From the NCBI GenBank assembly GCA_902795255.1, contig CADBKS010000004.1:1-9165 (forward strand): a stretch of DNA of 9,165 bases, read 5' to 3'. The notes beneath the pieces are model-generated. The model had not been told where the DNA came from and made no database searches. It saw nothing but the letters and a program-made list of their open reading frames with translations. The DNA is from an uncultured Chloroflexota bacterium (GTDB lineage Bacteria; Chloroflexota; Anaerolineae; Anaerolineales; Anaerolineaceae). Within the stretch, counting starts at the first letter, position 1; every line of letters begins with the position of its first letter. The translations under genes and the position numbers were made by a program. This document shows positions 2,473 to 8,566 of the stretch, piece after piece.

Positions 2473-2870
2473 AGCTGACAGCTGTCAGCGAGCAGTGCTT
2501 CGCACAGGTAAAAAGTAAAATGTAAAAATTGCGGTGACGCTTCGCCATTCCAATAAAGTAAAATGTAAAAATTGCGGTGACGCTTCGCCATTCCAATTCG
2601 GAATTCGGAAAGCGGAATTCGGAATTATCCTTGAACATTTTGCGCGTCTCAAAACGTGCCGGCGGTGAGATTGGAAGCGGTAGCCGCTGCGCGGACAATC
2701 ATAGAACGTCGCTGCGCTCCGTATTCGGCAAAAATGCCTCACTGAAACCGTCCCGGTCGGCGACGACCACTGCGGCAACGGCGCCATCTTAAATCATCGC
2801 GAAGCGACACCTTTTCTATTCACTTTTCACCATTCACTATTCACTAAGCGAAGCACTCAGCACACAGCGC
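2473..2870. repeat. Composite intergenic repeat region with 7-bp arrays and inverted arms
   Basis: This is the gene-free stretch between the divergent macrodomain and ECF promoters. It contains several arrays in 7-bp register: AGCTGAC, AGCTGTC (2473-2486), three GTAAAAN units (2508-2528), AATTCGG, AATTCGG, AAAGCGG, AATTCGG (2595-2622) and TTCACTT, TTCACCA, TTCACTA, TTCACTA (2819-2846). The ends are inverted: AGTGCTTCGC at 2494-2503 matches the complement of 2848-2857, and GGTGACGCTTCGC at 2533-2545 matches the complement of 2799-2811 at 12 of 13 positions. A 14-bp perfect palindrome lies at 2475-2488. The core (about 2640-2790) is GC-rich, without an array. Short open frames across the region on both strands are low-complexity translations of the repeats and I do not count them as genes. 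It resembles a MITE-like or multicopy intergenic element, but copy number cannot be seen here. Confidence 0.75.
2512..2597. repeat. Perfect tandem duplication of a 43-bp unit
   Basis: Bases 2512-2554 and 2555-2597 are identical, adjacent and in the same orientation. Each unit begins AAAGTAAAATG, continues with TTGCGGTGACGCTTCGCC and ends CATTCCAAT. Each therefore contains one inverted-arm sequence of the larger element, so only the left arm has been doubled. The perfect identity suggests a recent slippage or recombination event. Confidence 0.95.
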
Positions 2871-2916
2871 ATCAACGATATAAGGGGAAGAATACCGCCG
2901 GATCGGCTTTTTCGAT

Positions 2917-2922
2917 TATAAT
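2917..2922 (+). promoter_or_regulatory. Probable -10 box of the ECF transporter operon
   Basis: TATAAT in the context GATTATAATAGGATG lies 41 nt before the S-component ATG. No convincing TTGACA-like -35 is seen 16 to 18 nt upstream. If this is the promoter, the leader is only about 35 nt, too short for a SAM, FMN or TPP riboswitch. Confidence 0.5.
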
Positions 2923-2963
2923 AGGATGCAGTAATTTTTTATGAAACCGAAGGAGTTCATAAG

Positions 2964-3506
2964 ATGAAAATCACAACCCGCACGATCGTTGCGATCGGTA
3001 TCGGCTCAGCCGTATTCTTCGTTCTGAACCGTTTTGTCGTTATCCCCACCGGGATCCCGAATACGAACATTTCAACCGCTTACGGTTTTCTCGCCTTCAT
3101 GGCGACCCTGTTCGGACCGCTTGCCGGTGCCCTGATCGGGTTCATCGGCCACACCCTGACAGACATCAGCTGGGGCGGTGTCTGGTGGAGCTGGGTGATC
3201 GTCTCGGCCTTTGTCGGCTGCGCGGTCGGACTTTCCTGGAAAAAGATCAACCTGGAAGACGGCAGCTTCGGGGCCAAAGATATCCTGACCTTCAACCTGT
3301 TCCAGATCGCCGCGAATATCATCGGCTGGGGTCTGCTGGCTCCGGTGCTTGACATTCTGATCTACAAAGAACCGGCAGACAAAGTCTTCCTTCAGGGTCT
3401 GACAGCCGGTGTGGCGAACCTGGTTTCCATGGCGATCCTCGGGACGATCTTCCTGACGATCTATGCCAAGACACGCACTTCCGCGGGAAGCCTCAACAAA
3501 CAGTAA
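2964..3506 (+). CDS. ECF transporter substrate-binding (S) component, UPF0397/PF07155 family
   Basis: Integral membrane S component that binds the substrate and docks on the ECF energising module. It is 180 aa with hydrophobic segments at about 8-28, 38-62, 73-92, 108-134 and 145-168. The segments RFVVIPTGIPNTNISTAYGF (23-42, with IPTGIPNTNI the most telling), FGPLAGALIGFIGHTLTD (50-67) and GGVWWSWVI (71-79) are characteristic of the UPF0397 family as I recall it. That family has been named both as a riboflavin-type S component and, in genome-context annotation, as MtsA of a methionine-regulated ECF system, so the substrate is not settled. An AAGGAG (2950-2955) lies 8 nt before the ATG. The ATPase and T genes follow, separated from this gene by a terminator-like hairpin that starts 12 bp after its stop. 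Confidence 0.88.
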   Translation: MKITTRTIVAIGIGSAVFFVLNRFVVIPTGIPNTNISTAYGFLAFMATLFGPLAGALIGFIGHTLTDISWGGVWWSWVIVSAFVGCAVGLSWKKINLEDGSFGAKDILTFNLFQIAANIIGWGLLAPVLDILIYKEPADKVFLQGLTAGVANLVSMAILGTIFLTIYAKTRTSAGSLNKQ

Positions 3507-3518
3507 AAAATGACTTTC

Positions 3519-3553
3519 AGGAGACGCCGGAAAAATGATCCGGCGTCTCTTTT
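3519..3553 (+). terminator. Intrinsic terminator/attenuator between the S-component and ATPase genes
   Basis: GAGACGCCGG (3521-3530) pairs perfectly with CCGGCGTCTC (3540-3549) across a 9-nt loop, and an A-T pair and a G-T wobble extend the stem to 12 bp. TTTT follows at 3550-3553. The 5' arm contains AGGAG (3519-3523), the only Shine-Dalgarno-like sequence near the ATPase start. The hairpin lies inside an operon, so partial termination, yielding more S component than energising module, is likelier than a true operon end. Confidence 0.75.
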
Positions 3554-3570
3554 CGTTATATCGCCCATGA
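3535..3570 (+). CDS. Possible 11-aa leader peptide overlapping the ATPase start
   Basis: ATG 3535 opens an 11-codon frame, MIRRLFSLYRP, whose TGA (3568-3570) overlaps the ATPase ATG (3567-3569) as ATGA. AGGAG lies 11 nt upstream of its start, within the 5' arm of the hairpin, while the ATPase ATG has no Shine-Dalgarno of its own. Translation of this frame would open the hairpin and deliver ribosomes to the ATPase start. It is a hypothesis from layout only; such a short frame can arise by chance. Confidence 0.3.
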   Translation: MIRRLFSLYRP

Positions 3571-4967
3571 ACGACACAGCAGCAATCGAATTCAGAAATT
3601 TCTCCTTCAGGTACAGGGTACAGGCCGAACCCACACTGCATGATCTGAACCTGCGGATCGAAAAAGGTCAGAAGGTCATGATCGCGGGGCCCTCCGGGTG
3701 CGGGAAAAGCACCGTCGGGCACTGCATCAACGGGCTGATTCCCCATTATTACAAAGGCGAGATCAGCGGCAGCCTGTTTGTCAACGGAGAAGACGCATCG
3801 AAGATGGATATCTTCGCACTGTCGAAACATGTCGGGACAGTCCTCCAGGATGCGGACGGACAGTTTGTCGGTCTGACGGTAGGGGAGGATATCGCCTTCG
3901 CGCTTGAAAATGACATGGAAGAGCAGTCCCGGATGAAGGAAAAAGTCCTCCGCACCGCCCGGACAGTCGATATGGACCGGTGGCTGAGATCCCATCCGCA
4001 GGAGCTTTCCGGCGGGCAGAAACAGCGTGTCTCCCTGGCAGGCGTGATGGTCGACGATGTGAACATATACCTGTTTGATGAACCGCTGGCGAACCTTGAT
4101 CCGGCCACCGGCAAAGGCGCGATCGAACTGATCGATGAAACACACCGGCAAACCGGCGCGACAGTCATCATTATCGAACACCGGCTGGAGGATGTGCTCT
4201 GGCGAAAGATGGACCGCATCATTCTGATGGATGAAGGCAGGATCATCTGCGACGACACGCCGGACCGGATCCTTGCCTCCGGGATCCTGCGTTCATCCGG
4301 GATCCGTGAACCGCTGTATGTCACGGCGCTTTCCTACGCCGGCATTCCGGTGCGGGAAGAAATGCATCCGGAAAGCCTGTCCAAAATGGACGTCCGTCCC
4401 TTCCGTGAGACGCTTCACACCTGGGAACGAACGATCCCGCCGGAAAAGCCGGCTGATCCGGGTGAGGAGATCCTTTCCTTTGAACATGTCAATTTTGCCT
4501 ACAGCGAAGACGCGCCGCTGATCCTGAATGATATCAGCTTCAGTATCCGGCGCGGGGAAATGACCGCGATCGCGGGGAAAAACGGCGCGGGGAAAAGCAC
4601 ACTGTGCAAGCTCATCTGCGGCTTTATCACACCCGCCTCCGGGAAAATATACCTCAACGGGAAAGACGCCTCGGACCAGACGATCTATGAACGGGCCCGG
4701 ACTGTGGGATACGTCATGCAGAACCCGAACCAGATGATCTGCAAGGCAATGATCCGCGAGGAGGTCGGATTCGGGCTTGAACTGCGGAACGTTCCCAAAG
4801 AAGAGATCGACCGGCGGGTCGATGAAGTTCTGAAGACCTGCGGTCTGTACCCGTTCCGGAACTGGCCGGTTTCCGCACTGTCATACGGGCAGAAAAAACG
4901 GGTGACGATCGCCTCGATCCTGGTTTTAGAGCCGGATCTGCTCATTCTGGATGAACCGACCGCCTGA
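3567..4967 (+). CDS. Duplicated ECF ATPase (A1-A2 type), ended early by an in-frame TGA
   Basis: Cytoplasmic energising ATPase of the ECF importer with two nucleotide-binding domains in one chain (the arrangement called MtsB or YkoD-like). NBD1 is complete: Walker A GPSGCGKST (41-49), Q-loop Q94, signature LSGGQKQR (147-154), Walker B with FDEPLANLD (170-178) and switch H205. NBD2 has Walker A GKNGAGKST (337-345), Q385, signature LSYGQKKR (438-445) and LLILDEPTA (458-466), then TGA at codon 467, where the family has Gly of the D-loop (AGQD-type). The D-loop and switch His of NBD2 are encoded after the stop in the same frame. As read, the protein is 466 aa, against about 569 for the full frame. 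The start is taken at ATG 3567, not in-frame ATG 3510: the extra 19 codons are the hairpin itself and lack a ribosome binding site, while the family N-terminus fits MNDTAAIEFRNFSF. Confidence 0.85.
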   Translation: MNDTAAIEFRNFSFRYRVQAEPTLHDLNLRIEKGQKVMIAGPSGCGKSTVGHCINGLIPHYYKGEISGSLFVNGEDASKMDIFALSKHVGTVLQDADGQFVGLTVGEDIAFALENDMEEQSRMKEKVLRTARTVDMDRWLRSHPQELSGGQKQRVSLAGVMVDDVNIYLFDEPLANLDPATGKGAIELIDETHRQTGATVIIIEHRLEDVLWRKMDRIILMDEGRIICDDTPDRILASGILRSSGIREPLYVTALSYAGIPVREEMHPESLSKMDVRPFRETLHTWERTIPPEKPADPGEEILSFEHVNFAYSEDAPLILNDISFSIRRGEMTAIAGKNGAGKSTLCKLICGFITPASGKIYLNGKDASDQTIYERARTVGYVMQNPNQMICKAMIREEVGFGLELRNVPKEEIDRRVDEVLKTCGLYPFRNWPVSALSYGQKKRVTIASILVLEPDLLILDEPTA

Positions 4968-5276
4968 GAGGATTTACGGCATTATACGGAAATCATGACG
5001 TTTCTGCAGTCCCTGCAGCAGCAGGGGATCACGATCCTCATGGTCACACATGACATGCACCTGATGCTGGAATACGCCCGGCGTTCGATCGTTCTCGCAG
5101 ACGGACATCTGATCTGTGACGATACCGCGGCACGGGTACTCAGCGACCCGGACATCATCGAACGGGCAAACCTGAAAGAAACAAGCCTCTTCACGCTTGC
5201 GCAGAAAGCCGGGCTGGAAGACCCGATCCGCTTCATTCAGAATTTCATAACGCATGAAAGGGGGCTGCGCGGCTGA
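4968..5276 (+). pseudogene. C-terminal remnant of the ECF ATPase NBD2, downstream of the TGA
   Basis: The 102 codons after the TGA stay in the frame of the preceding ATPase and align with the rest of NBD2: EDLRHYTEIMTFLQ completes the D-loop region, and ITILMVTHDMHLML carries the switch His (codon 495 counted from 3567). The frame ends TGA at 5274-5276. Reading through codon 467 gives a 569-residue protein of normal family length, so this is one gene with a nonsense codon and not two genes. A first internal ATG exists at 4995 (open frame 4995-5276, 93 aa), but it has no Shine-Dalgarno at a workable distance (GAGAGG lies 23 nt upstream). The fragment would lack Walker A, Q-loop and signature, so it cannot be an ATPase alone. 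The terminal TGA overlaps the T-component ATG (TGATG). Confidence 0.8.
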
Positions 5277-6106
5277 TGGCATCCAAAGTCCTTTCATATA
5301 TTCCGCGGGAAACCCCCGTACACCGCTTAAGCGGCGCGACAAAAATGATCGTCTTTCTCGCATGGACGATCGTCTGTATGCTGACTTACAACACCTGGGT
5401 CCTCGTCTGCGCGCTGGTGCTTGGGATCACGATCTTCATCATTGCGCGGATCCGGCTGAGTGAGGTCCGCTTCGTCCTGGTCACGATGCTGGTCTTTCTG
5501 GTCCTGAACGCGGCAGCGATCTATATCTTTTCGCCGGAAGAAGGCGTCAAAGTCTACGGAACGCGGCACCTGCTCTTTCAAATCAGCAGCCGCTATACGG
5601 TGACCTCCGAGCAGCTGTTTTACCTGTTCAATGTCATGCTGAAATATTTCACCGTGGTCCCGATCGCGCTGCTGTTCATCACCACCACGGACCCGAGCGA
5701 ATTCGCGGCTTCCCTGAACAAGATCGGCATCCCCTACAAGATCGCCTATGCCGTCGCGATCACCCTCCGCTACCTCGGCGATGTTCAGGCTGACTATACA
5801 GAGATCTCGCAGGCACAGCAGGCCAGAGGGGTCGACCTTTCCAAAAAGGCGCCGCTGAAAAAACGCATCGCGGGTCTGGCGGGCATCGCGGTACCGCTGA
5901 TCTTTTCCAGTCTGGACCATATCGACCTTGTCAGCAACGCCATGGATCTCCGCGGCTTCGGAAAGAACCCGCGCCGGACCTGGTACAGTGCCCGGCCGTT
6001 TCAGAAAGCCGATTACGCTGTCATGATCGCGACGGTCCTGCTCAGCGCCGCGGGGCTTTACTTCACCTTCAGGGGTGGCAGCAGGTTTTACAACCCGTTC
6101 CTGTAA
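5276..6106 (+). CDS. ECF transporter transmembrane (T) component
   Basis: Membrane scaffold of the ECF module (EcfT/CbiQ family, 276 aa, normal length). It links the two ATPase domains to the S component. Hydrophobic segments lie at about 24-57, 64-86, 115-137, 152-165, 195-212 and 246-266. The two coupling motifs are visible: QARG at 182-185 (context QAQQARGVDLSKK) and DLRG at 224-227 (context NAMDLRGFGKNPRR); their Arg residues contact the ATPases in characterised ECF systems. The start overlaps the preceding stop as TGATG, with AAGGGGG (5258-5264) 11 nt upstream, implying translational coupling to the ATPase frame. The TGA inside the ATPase could therefore reduce its expression. There are no disrupting stops or frameshifts, so the gene still looks under selection. 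Confidence 0.93.
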   Translation: MASKVLSYIPRETPVHRLSGATKMIVFLAWTIVCMLTYNTWVLVCALVLGITIFIIARIRLSEVRFVLVTMLVFLVLNAAAIYIFSPEEGVKVYGTRHLLFQISSRYTVTSEQLFYLFNVMLKYFTVVPIALLFITTTDPSEFAASLNKIGIPYKIAYAVAITLRYLGDVQADYTEISQAQQARGVDLSKKAPLKKRIAGLAGIAVPLIFSSLDHIDLVSNAMDLRGFGKNPRRTWYSARPFQKADYAVMIATVLLSAAGLYFTFRGGSRFYNPFL

Positions 6107-6126
6107 AGAAAACATCTCCCAAATAA

Positions 6127-6154
6127 AAAGTCCGGAGCGGTTTCTCCGGACTTT
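6127..6154. terminator. Bidirectional terminator between the ECF operon and the GH3 gene
   Basis: AAAGTCCGGAG (6127-6137) and CTCCGGACTTT (6144-6154) form a perfect 11-bp stem with a 6-nt loop. On the plus strand it is followed by ATTGTTTT, and on the minus strand by TTATTT. It lies 20 bp after the T-component stop and 6 bp after the GH3 stop on the other strand, so both convergent transcripts can use it. Confidence 0.9.
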
Positions 6155-6160
6155 ATTGTT

Positions 6161-8566
6161 TTAATCCAGCTTCAGGATCAGTTCGAGGACCCTTCTGGCG
6201 GATCTTGTGATCGTTTCTTCACTGATCAGGCCTTTCTCATAGGCCCGTTTCACCCGCTCGGGAAACCCGGTACCCATCTTGATGTCGTTGCCGGCATTCA
6301 GCTCTTTATACTGCTCCGCGTTGTTCCACCAGTCGGTCATCACGGCACCGCGGTAGCCCCATTCCCCGCGCAGGATCCCGTCCAGGAGGTCTTTATTCTC
6401 CGAGGCGCGCTCACCGTTCACCAGGTTGTAGGCGGTCATCAGCGACATCGGATGTGCGGTCTTCACGGCGATCTCAAAGCCCTTCAGATAGATCTCCCGC
6501 AGGGCCCGTTCCGAGACCCGTGAGTCACTGTTCTTGCGGTTCGTTTCCTTGTTGTTGCAGCAGAAATGCTTGATCGCGGCAGCGACCGTATTGCGCTGGA
6601 TCCCGCGGATCATCGCGGCTGAAAGCGTCCCGGTCAGGTACGGGTCCTCGGAATAGTATTCAAAGTTCCGGCCGCAGAGCGGGCTCCGGTGGATGCAGAT
6701 TGCCGGAGTCAGCCAGATCGAAATATTGTTTTCCCGGACCTCCTCACCGGCCGCGAACCCGACCTTTTCGACAATGGACGGGTCCCAGGTGGAAGCCAGC
6801 AGTGTCGAACAGGGGAAAGCGGTCGTATAAACACCGCACTCCGGCCGGATCCGGAGCCCGGCAGGGCCGTCCGCGGTCATGACCGAAGGGACGCCGTACT
6901 CCGGAAGGTTCCCGAAACCGAAAGTATTCGCCACCCCCGTGTTCGGCTGACCGCCCAGCAGATGGATCTTCTCATCAATGCTGAGCTGAGCGATGAATTC
7001 GTCAAGGGTGCATTTTTCATCCGCCACATCATCCAGAATGAATTCTTTTTCCCGCTCGAAGAACTTCATGCGGTCGATAAAACGGGTCTGCGGTGTCAGG
7101 CATTCATCACCGGAGAAGCCCTCCCAGCCGAGCCCGTTCTGCATATGGTCATGCGGTTCTCCGGCGGGCAGCGTTTCATAAGTGCCGTCGGAGCGCAGGC
7201 GTTTTTCCAGCTGCCACGGGGCGGCCCTGGAGATCAGCTGTTCCGTGACCCGGTCCGAATCCTGCCGGAAGGAATAGGGGAGCAGGACCGCATCCCTGAC
7301 GTTTGCCCCGGCATAAAAGCGGTATTCCCCCTTTTCGAGCACATAAGCGGAACGGGCGATCTTACCGAGATCGTCGTAGGAAGCCATATCCGCAACCGGG
7401 AAGCTGAGTTCAAGCTCCTGACGCTCATCCGGCGCCAGCAGGCCGGTCTTGGCAAAGGCGGCCAGTTCGCGGGAAGGTTTCCCGAGCAGCCCGTCCGGAG
7501 CCGAGTAGTAAAGCTGCACCACTTCCTTCCCGGCGGTCCTGCCGCAGTTCCGGACACTGACCTTCACCGTGATCCGGTCATCCGCCTCACCGGCGGAGAT
7601 CAGGTCGACGGCAAAATCCGTATAGGAAAGGCCGTAGCCGAAAGGATAAATGACTTTCTGCTTCATCCCGGGAATCGTTTCAAAGAAGCGGTAGCCGACA
7701 TAAATGTCTTCCGTATAGTCCACATAGTCCGGAGATTCATGGAACCCCGCGGTCGACGGATAATCATCCAGATCCCGAGCGGCCGTATCCGGCAGTCTGC
7801 CGCAGGGAGAAGCGTTCCCCATCAGCAGATCCGCGGCAGCCAGTCCGCCCATCATCCCGCCCTGCCAGGCAAGCAGGGCAGAGTCGATCCGCGGATCTTC
7901 CGAGAACCATTTGAAGTCCATCAGCCCGCCGATGTTCAACACAACGATCACCCGCGGGAAATCAGCGCATACTTTTTCCACCAGGGTCTTTTCCCCGGCT
8001 GTCAGATAAAAATCGCTGTCCGGGAACAAGCGCCGGGAGAGACGGAGAAATTCCAAGCCGTATTCATCCTGGCCTTCAAACTCCCGTCCCATCCGATCCC
8101 AGCCCTCTCCGGAGAACCTGCAGATCGAGATAACAGCCGTATCCGTAAACTCCCTGGCACCGGCCAGCAGCTGCAGCGGAACAGCCGGTTCAACGGTCAG
8201 TCCCGGAAGCGCTCCCTCCTCCAGCTGTTTTTGTACATTCTCACGGTAAAAGGCGCACAGCGGTTCGTAAATCTCAGGGGCGTTCGGCTGCTGTTTCAGC
8301 CCTTCATAAAGATCGATCGTGAAGGAGCAGGTCACGTCACCGCTTCCCCCGCCGCCTTTAACATAATCAAATGTCCCTTTTCCGAAAAGCGCTACGCGGG
8401 AACCGCCGGCCAGCGGAAGCAGCCCGCCCTCATTTTTCAGGAGGACCATCCCCTCCCGCGCGGCTTCCCGCGCGATCGCCAGGTGTTCCTCACCTGCCGT
8501 GACTTTCGATTTTCCTTCATACAACGGTAAATTGACCTGATACCTGGGACGGGTCCAATGGTTCAT
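6161..8566 (-). CDS. GH3 beta-glucosidase-type enzyme with permuted domain order (801 aa)
   Basis: Retaining glycoside hydrolase, most likely releasing glucose from cello-oligosaccharides or other beta-glucosides; exact specificity is not readable. Domains run in the reverse of the usual GH3 order. The sandwich domain normally C-terminal comes first (about 30-315; AREAAREGMVLLKNEGGLLPL-like at 32-52, general acid/base candidate E154 in SGEGWDR, and YPFGYGLSYTDF at 307-318). An FN3-like domain follows (about 330-430; VVQLYYSAP at 349-357), and the TIM barrel comes last (about 524-801; TADGPAGLR 564-572, CGRNFEYYSEDP 631-642, KHF 666-668, nucleophile D745 in VMTDWW). This order is known for Ruminococcus albus and Butyrivibrio fibrisolvens enzymes. 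There is no signal peptide, so it is probably cytoplasmic. The start is ATG 8566, with GGAGG 4 nt upstream. The longer in-frame ATG at 8617 has no ribosome binding site and overlaps the -10 box. Confidence 0.93.
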   Translation of the reverse strand: MNHWTRPRYQVNLPLYEGKSKVTAGEEHLAIAREAAREGMVLLKNEGGLLPLAGGSRVALFGKGTFDYVKGGGGSGDVTCSFTIDLYEGLKQQPNAPEIYEPLCAFYRENVQKQLEEGALPGLTVEPAVPLQLLAGAREFTDTAVISICRFSGEGWDRMGREFEGQDEYGLEFLRLSRRLFPDSDFYLTAGEKTLVEKVCADFPRVIVVLNIGGLMDFKWFSEDPRIDSALLAWQGGMMGGLAAADLLMGNASPCGRLPDTAARDLDDYPSTAGFHESPDYVDYTEDIYVGYRFFETIPGMKQKVIYPFGYGLSYTDFAVDLISAGEADDRITVKVSVRNCGRTAGKEVVQLYYSAPDGLLGKPSRELAAFAKTGLLAPDERQELELSFPVADMASYDDLGKIARSAYVLEKGEYRFYAGANVRDAVLLPYSFRQDSDRVTEQLISRAAPWQLEKRLRSDGTYETLPAGEPHDHMQNGLGWEGFSGDECLTPQTRFIDRMKFFEREKEFILDDVADEKCTLDEFIAQLSIDEKIHLLGGQPNTGVANTFGFGNLPEYGVPSVMTADGPAGLRIRPECGVYTTAFPCSTLLASTWDPSIVEKVGFAAGEEVRENNISIWLTPAICIHRSPLCGRNFEYYSEDPYLTGTLSAAMIRGIQRNTVAAAIKHFCCNNKETNRKNSDSRVSERALREIYLKGFEIAVKTAHPMSLMTAYNLVNGERASENKDLLDGILRGEWGYRGAVMTDWWNNAEQYKELNAGNDIKMGTGFPERVKRAYEKGLISEETITRSARRVLELILKLD

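Follow-up and report, generated by a model that had tools for sequence, protein, structure and literature searches.

The in-frame TGA codon that interrupts the second NBD (NBD2) of a fused energy-coupling factor (ECF) transporter ATPase in this Chloroflexota DNA most probably reflects an error in the sequence or an isolated broken copy, and not new biology, because a near-identical database copy of the gene is intact and the stop lies within a small multi-base patch. The window (the whole stretch of DNA analysed, 9,165 nucleotides) holds an S-A-T operon of an ECF transporter, recognised from its reading frames and from Pfam and NCBIfam matches, with the following features, all on the forward strand.

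2964..3506 (+): ECF S component, riboflavin-type (PF07155, Pfam E 4e-50; NCBIfam NF010182, 236.1 bits against a cut-off of 99)
3519..3551 (+): terminator- or attenuator-like hairpin of 13 pairs with a T-rich tail, in the spacer that separates S from A (repeat-site scan and fold)
3567..4964 (+): the 466 codons of the fused ECF ATPase that precede the stop, covering NBD1, the DUF3744 linker and NBD2 as far as Walker B (PF00005 in two stretches, PF12558 in one; P0002 covers 100%)
4965..4976 (+): anomalous 12-base patch encoding stop, Glu, Asp, Leu where relatives have Gly, Gln, Asp and mostly Phe/Tyr (comparison with P0002 and homologues)
4968..5276 (+): rest of NBD2 in open frame, with the switch His and the closing TGA (identical to P0002 except at codons 468 and 470)
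5276..6106 (+): ECF T component, PF02361 CbiQ (Pfam; P0181 has the same residue at 275 of 276 positions)

As written, the ATPase open reading frame runs from 3510 to 4967 on the forward strand and is terminated by the TGA at 4965-4967. Its start is probably at 3567 rather than 3510, because the best homologue, P0002, begins there with the same initial Met. The TGA is codon 467 and directly follows LLILDEPTA, the Walker B sequence of NBD2, and the same frame then remains open for 102 codons (4968-5273) up to a TGA at 5274-5276 that overlaps the ATG of the T gene at 5276. The first-pass annotation, which described a single TGA splitting NBD2 after Walker B and a frame running on for 102 codons to a stop overlapping the T gene, was thus correct on both points, and its description of the surroundings as intact is borne out by the Pfam matches before the stop and in the S and T genes. 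The two ABC ATPase domains and the DUF3744 linker are all recognised within the 466 codons that precede the stop, and the gene is flanked by an S component upstream and a T component downstream. In these respects (NBD1, DUF3744, NBD2 and the flanking S and T genes) the window matches the fused, YkoD-like two-NBD ECF ATPases with DUF3744, but its copy differs from them by the stop and by two other residue changes in the NBD2 D-loop region. In P0002 a single chain carries the whole of NBD2, D-loop and switch His included, whereas the window copy breaks off at codon 467. Aligned by sequence with the cobalt import ATPase CbiO 1 (3gfo), NBD2 of P0002 matches it over a stretch that opens at Walker A and extends beyond the switch His, with the motifs in order; the D-loop region of 3gfo reads ptagld in this alignment, with Gly at the position of the stop, while the window copy ends before its D-loop is complete. 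The EcfA1 structures 4huq and 5jsz were also matched by sequence.

P0002 is an intact protein of 569 residues, with a cluster of 13 member sequences, and is displayed on a single 3443-base contig from ENA. It is identical to the read-through frame of the window at 564 of 569 positions, the differences being at 32, 146, 467, 468 and 470, of which those at 32 and 146 are Glu/Asp exchanges. The T protein likewise differs from its best match, P0181, which is recorded on 4 contigs, at a single residue in 276. A separate comparison of T proteins drew on 63 of the 120 homologues listed for T. On the basis of these identities, P0002 and P0181 are probably from the same species as the window. The first-pass annotation had reasoned that Gly at this codon in a sister strain would mark the stop as an error or a strain-specific mutation; at the protein level, P0002 carries that Gly. 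Beyond this pair the relatives are more distant: the named homologues listed are from Flexilinea sp. (81% and below), Anaerolineaceae (64%) and one Clostridia bacterium (61%), and the nearest of the 147 genomes searched showed 78% identity. A phylum-wide sample gave matches in 3 of 400 genomes, all three already among those found in the 147-genome search. The plasmid search with window 4400-5300 returned seven records with identities of 60-80%, each spanning less than 80% of the query, and a scan of viral contigs returned one pattern match and no relative.

Three of the five differences from P0002 fall inside four consecutive codons, where the window has stop, E and L at 467, 468 and 470 and P0002 has G, Q and F. 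When five positions were placed at random in 569, three or more fell within four codons in a fraction of 0.0005 of 400,000 trials, a test chosen post hoc. Gly467 and Gln468 are present in all 119 of the other listed homologues, and codon 470 encodes Phe in 84 of these, Tyr in 25 and Leu, as in the window (TTA), in 10. The only window residues absent from all 119 are those at 122, 467 and 468, and Arg122 is common to P0002. (The alignment kept all 120 listed homologues; the one without an exact DEPT motif was dropped from a separate motif count.) At the DNA level, a comparison of this codon in related genomes, as suggested in the first-pass annotation, gave GGN CAR, a Gly codon followed by a Gln codon, in all 103 distinct D-loop contexts that remained of 120 loci after identical ones had been counted once; among these loci some genes are represented twice.

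Judged from the codon comparison, the patch would comprise at least three substitutions within 12 bases. Such a patch in an otherwise normal copy argues against a single point mutation, and the confinement of the changes to one 12-base stretch argues against slow decay following inactivation, which would spread changes along the gene. The stop and the Glu that follows it had been recognised as departures from the usual D-loop; both are there, and the Leu (TTA) at codon 470 is a third that had been missed. The suggestion that one base change explains the stop fits poorly with two further amino-acid changes within four codons of a sequence that is otherwise nearly identical to P0002.

We therefore favour, as on balance probable, a localised corruption of the sequence by a base-call, consensus or assembly error, with the organism itself making a normal 569-residue protein. 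According to this proposal, an ordinary fused ECF transporter ATPase gene of a Flexilinea-like Anaerolineaceae bacterium would have been altered in this sequence by one local event, which introduced at least three substitutions in 12 bases, one of them creating the stop; the patch would have arisen in sequencing or assembly and not in the cell, and both the substitution count and the single event are our inferences. Against an error stands the lack of in-frame stops in the other coding stretches checked, which indicates that the contig as a whole is not of poor quality.

A genuine multi-base mutation would leave the same picture as an error. The alternative that a very recent loss-of-function allele arose in one strain, leaving the transporter dead there while the species keeps an intact gene, is accordingly ranked second, as a possibility less probable than a base-call or assembly error, with functional explanations of the stop far behind. 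The sequence as written does carry the stop, the other coding stretches are open, and there is no decay in the gene outside the patch, as expected of a fresh mutation. However, three clustered amino-acid changes, two of them at invariant sites, require a complex mutation, and no template for the patch was found within the window. A template-switch mutation from window DNA is unsupported: only one exact match of at least 8 bases covers two of the inferred changed bases, and it is 8 bases long, inverted and 3.6 kb away. None of the 59 tail-like proteins found reached 90% identity to the 93-residue tail, a comparison in which the allele would be visible only if a gene caller had predicted a tail protein. 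No separate truncated form of the ATPase was seen among the 120 of 7997 homologues listed from a database clustered at 90%, so that truncated members could be hidden inside the cluster of P0002.

Internal stops in this ATPase gene look rare in the genomes compared, which also weighs against a null allele. Of 147 genomes, 34 matched, at 35 places (E at most 1e-150), and of 397 genomes, 68 matched, at 68 places (E at most 1e-100; one partial match); none of these places held an internal stop, nor did two further genomes, a total of 105 places, in searches that scored few candidates per genome and strong matches only and would miss badly decayed copies. Weaker, paralogous ABC matches in three of the genomes (G001, G002 and G004) included at least six that are interrupted by TGA or TAA, five of them once and one twice; these may be broken genes or matches crossing gene ends. 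If the allele were real, NBD2 would be missing its C-terminal part together with the D-loop and the switch His. A transporter whose ABC ATPase lacks these elements would be inactive.

Readings in which the stop is functional, whether by UGA readthrough, by insertion of selenocysteine or through an NBD2 operating in two pieces, are very unlikely. What draws attention to them is the conservation of the downstream frame relative to one related locus, L085 (pN 0.088 and dN/dS 0.072 on the 3′ side of the stop, against a dN/dS of 0.108 for the upstream part, with dS near saturation), but a low dN/dS reflects the past of the lineage and not present function. At the stop position the 120 listed homologues have Gly, never Cys or Trp, and not the Sec/Cys or variable residue expected of a selenoprotein or readthrough site. 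The folds that start at the TGA are ordinary (4965-5010, z 0.23; 4965-5030, z -1.44), as is that of 4920-5010 (z 0.12), whereas the fold of 4968-5060 is equalled in stability by just 3 of 200 shuffles (z -2.48). The outer stem of the latter spans about 70 bases, which is unlike the placement of a bacterial SECIS element, and no SECIS-like hairpin stood out. Selenocysteine at the TGA is thus unlikely, given the Gly in relatives and the ordinary folds at the stop itself, despite the more stable fold of 4968-5060. The existence of the near-identical intact P0002 speaks against every functional version of the stop.

Translation could restart at a Met at 4995, and 12 of the 59 tail-like database proteins begin at the equivalent Met, but this codon lacks a strong Shine-Dalgarno sequence in the window, and the piece downstream of the TGA, taken alone, matches no Pfam family at E 0.001. 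The 59 proteins, found in a search with the tail only, are 51 to 163 residues long; the best over the full length of the tail reaches 80% identity, and P0129 reaches 87% over 66% of it. The 12 that start at the post-D-loop Met (P0126, P0131, P0133, P0134, P0138, P0145, P0146, P0150, P0155, P0160, P0173 and P0174) may be products of ECF ATPase genes that are split or broken elsewhere, or else fragments from the ends of contigs; some of them lie on contigs several kb long, and that of P0138 measures 19 kb. That the patch is truly present and the transporter still used, by UGA readthrough or with a reassembled two-piece NBD2 carrying a changed D-loop, is more improbable still. Were the stop real and tolerated, an ABC ATPase domain would be functioning despite the lack of a normal D-loop, which would be surprising. 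Among the sources covered by our literature search, outside which most subscription journals lie, no report was found of a stop at this site in this ATPase family. The four options offered by the first-pass annotation can thus be narrowed: fresh inactivation and sequence error fit the data, while readthrough and a two-piece protein are unsupported.

An organism that reads TGA as an amino acid throughout would also explain a single in-frame TGA inside a conserved gene, but this is so improbable as to be nearly negligible. No other in-frame TGA occurs in the seven coding stretches checked (two of them parts of this gene), and the ATPase gene itself has TGA as its terminal stop, overlapping the start of T. 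Genome-wide recoding is contradicted by the window's own reading frames. The case carries a caution for the interpretation of single stops, as a conserved frame that continues past one mimics recoding, and here a near-identical intact homologue and the clustering of the changes point instead to an error or a private null allele.

The hairpin at 3519-3551 belongs to the spacer between the S and ATPase genes, and the fold of 3507-3566 that contains it is strongly stable (z -5.41; none of 200 shuffles as stable). Terminator-like sites in 2780-6200 number nine, versus 3.3 expected. Expression of S may be uncoupled or attenuated relative to that of A-T, because no clear Shine-Dalgarno sequence precedes the ATPase start at 3567. 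No Rfam family matched at its gathering score in the window, and two weak hits in 2780-3580 lay far below it. Five related loci were sought for a comparison of the region upstream of the ATPase, and the three that gave sequence (L085, L087 and L088) each have, by eye, an inverted repeat of different sequence at a similar place. Ahead of the S gene, the long intergenic region contains two perfect 43-bp tandem copies at 2512-2597, followed by short arrays of 7-bp units at 2595-2626 and 2816-2846.
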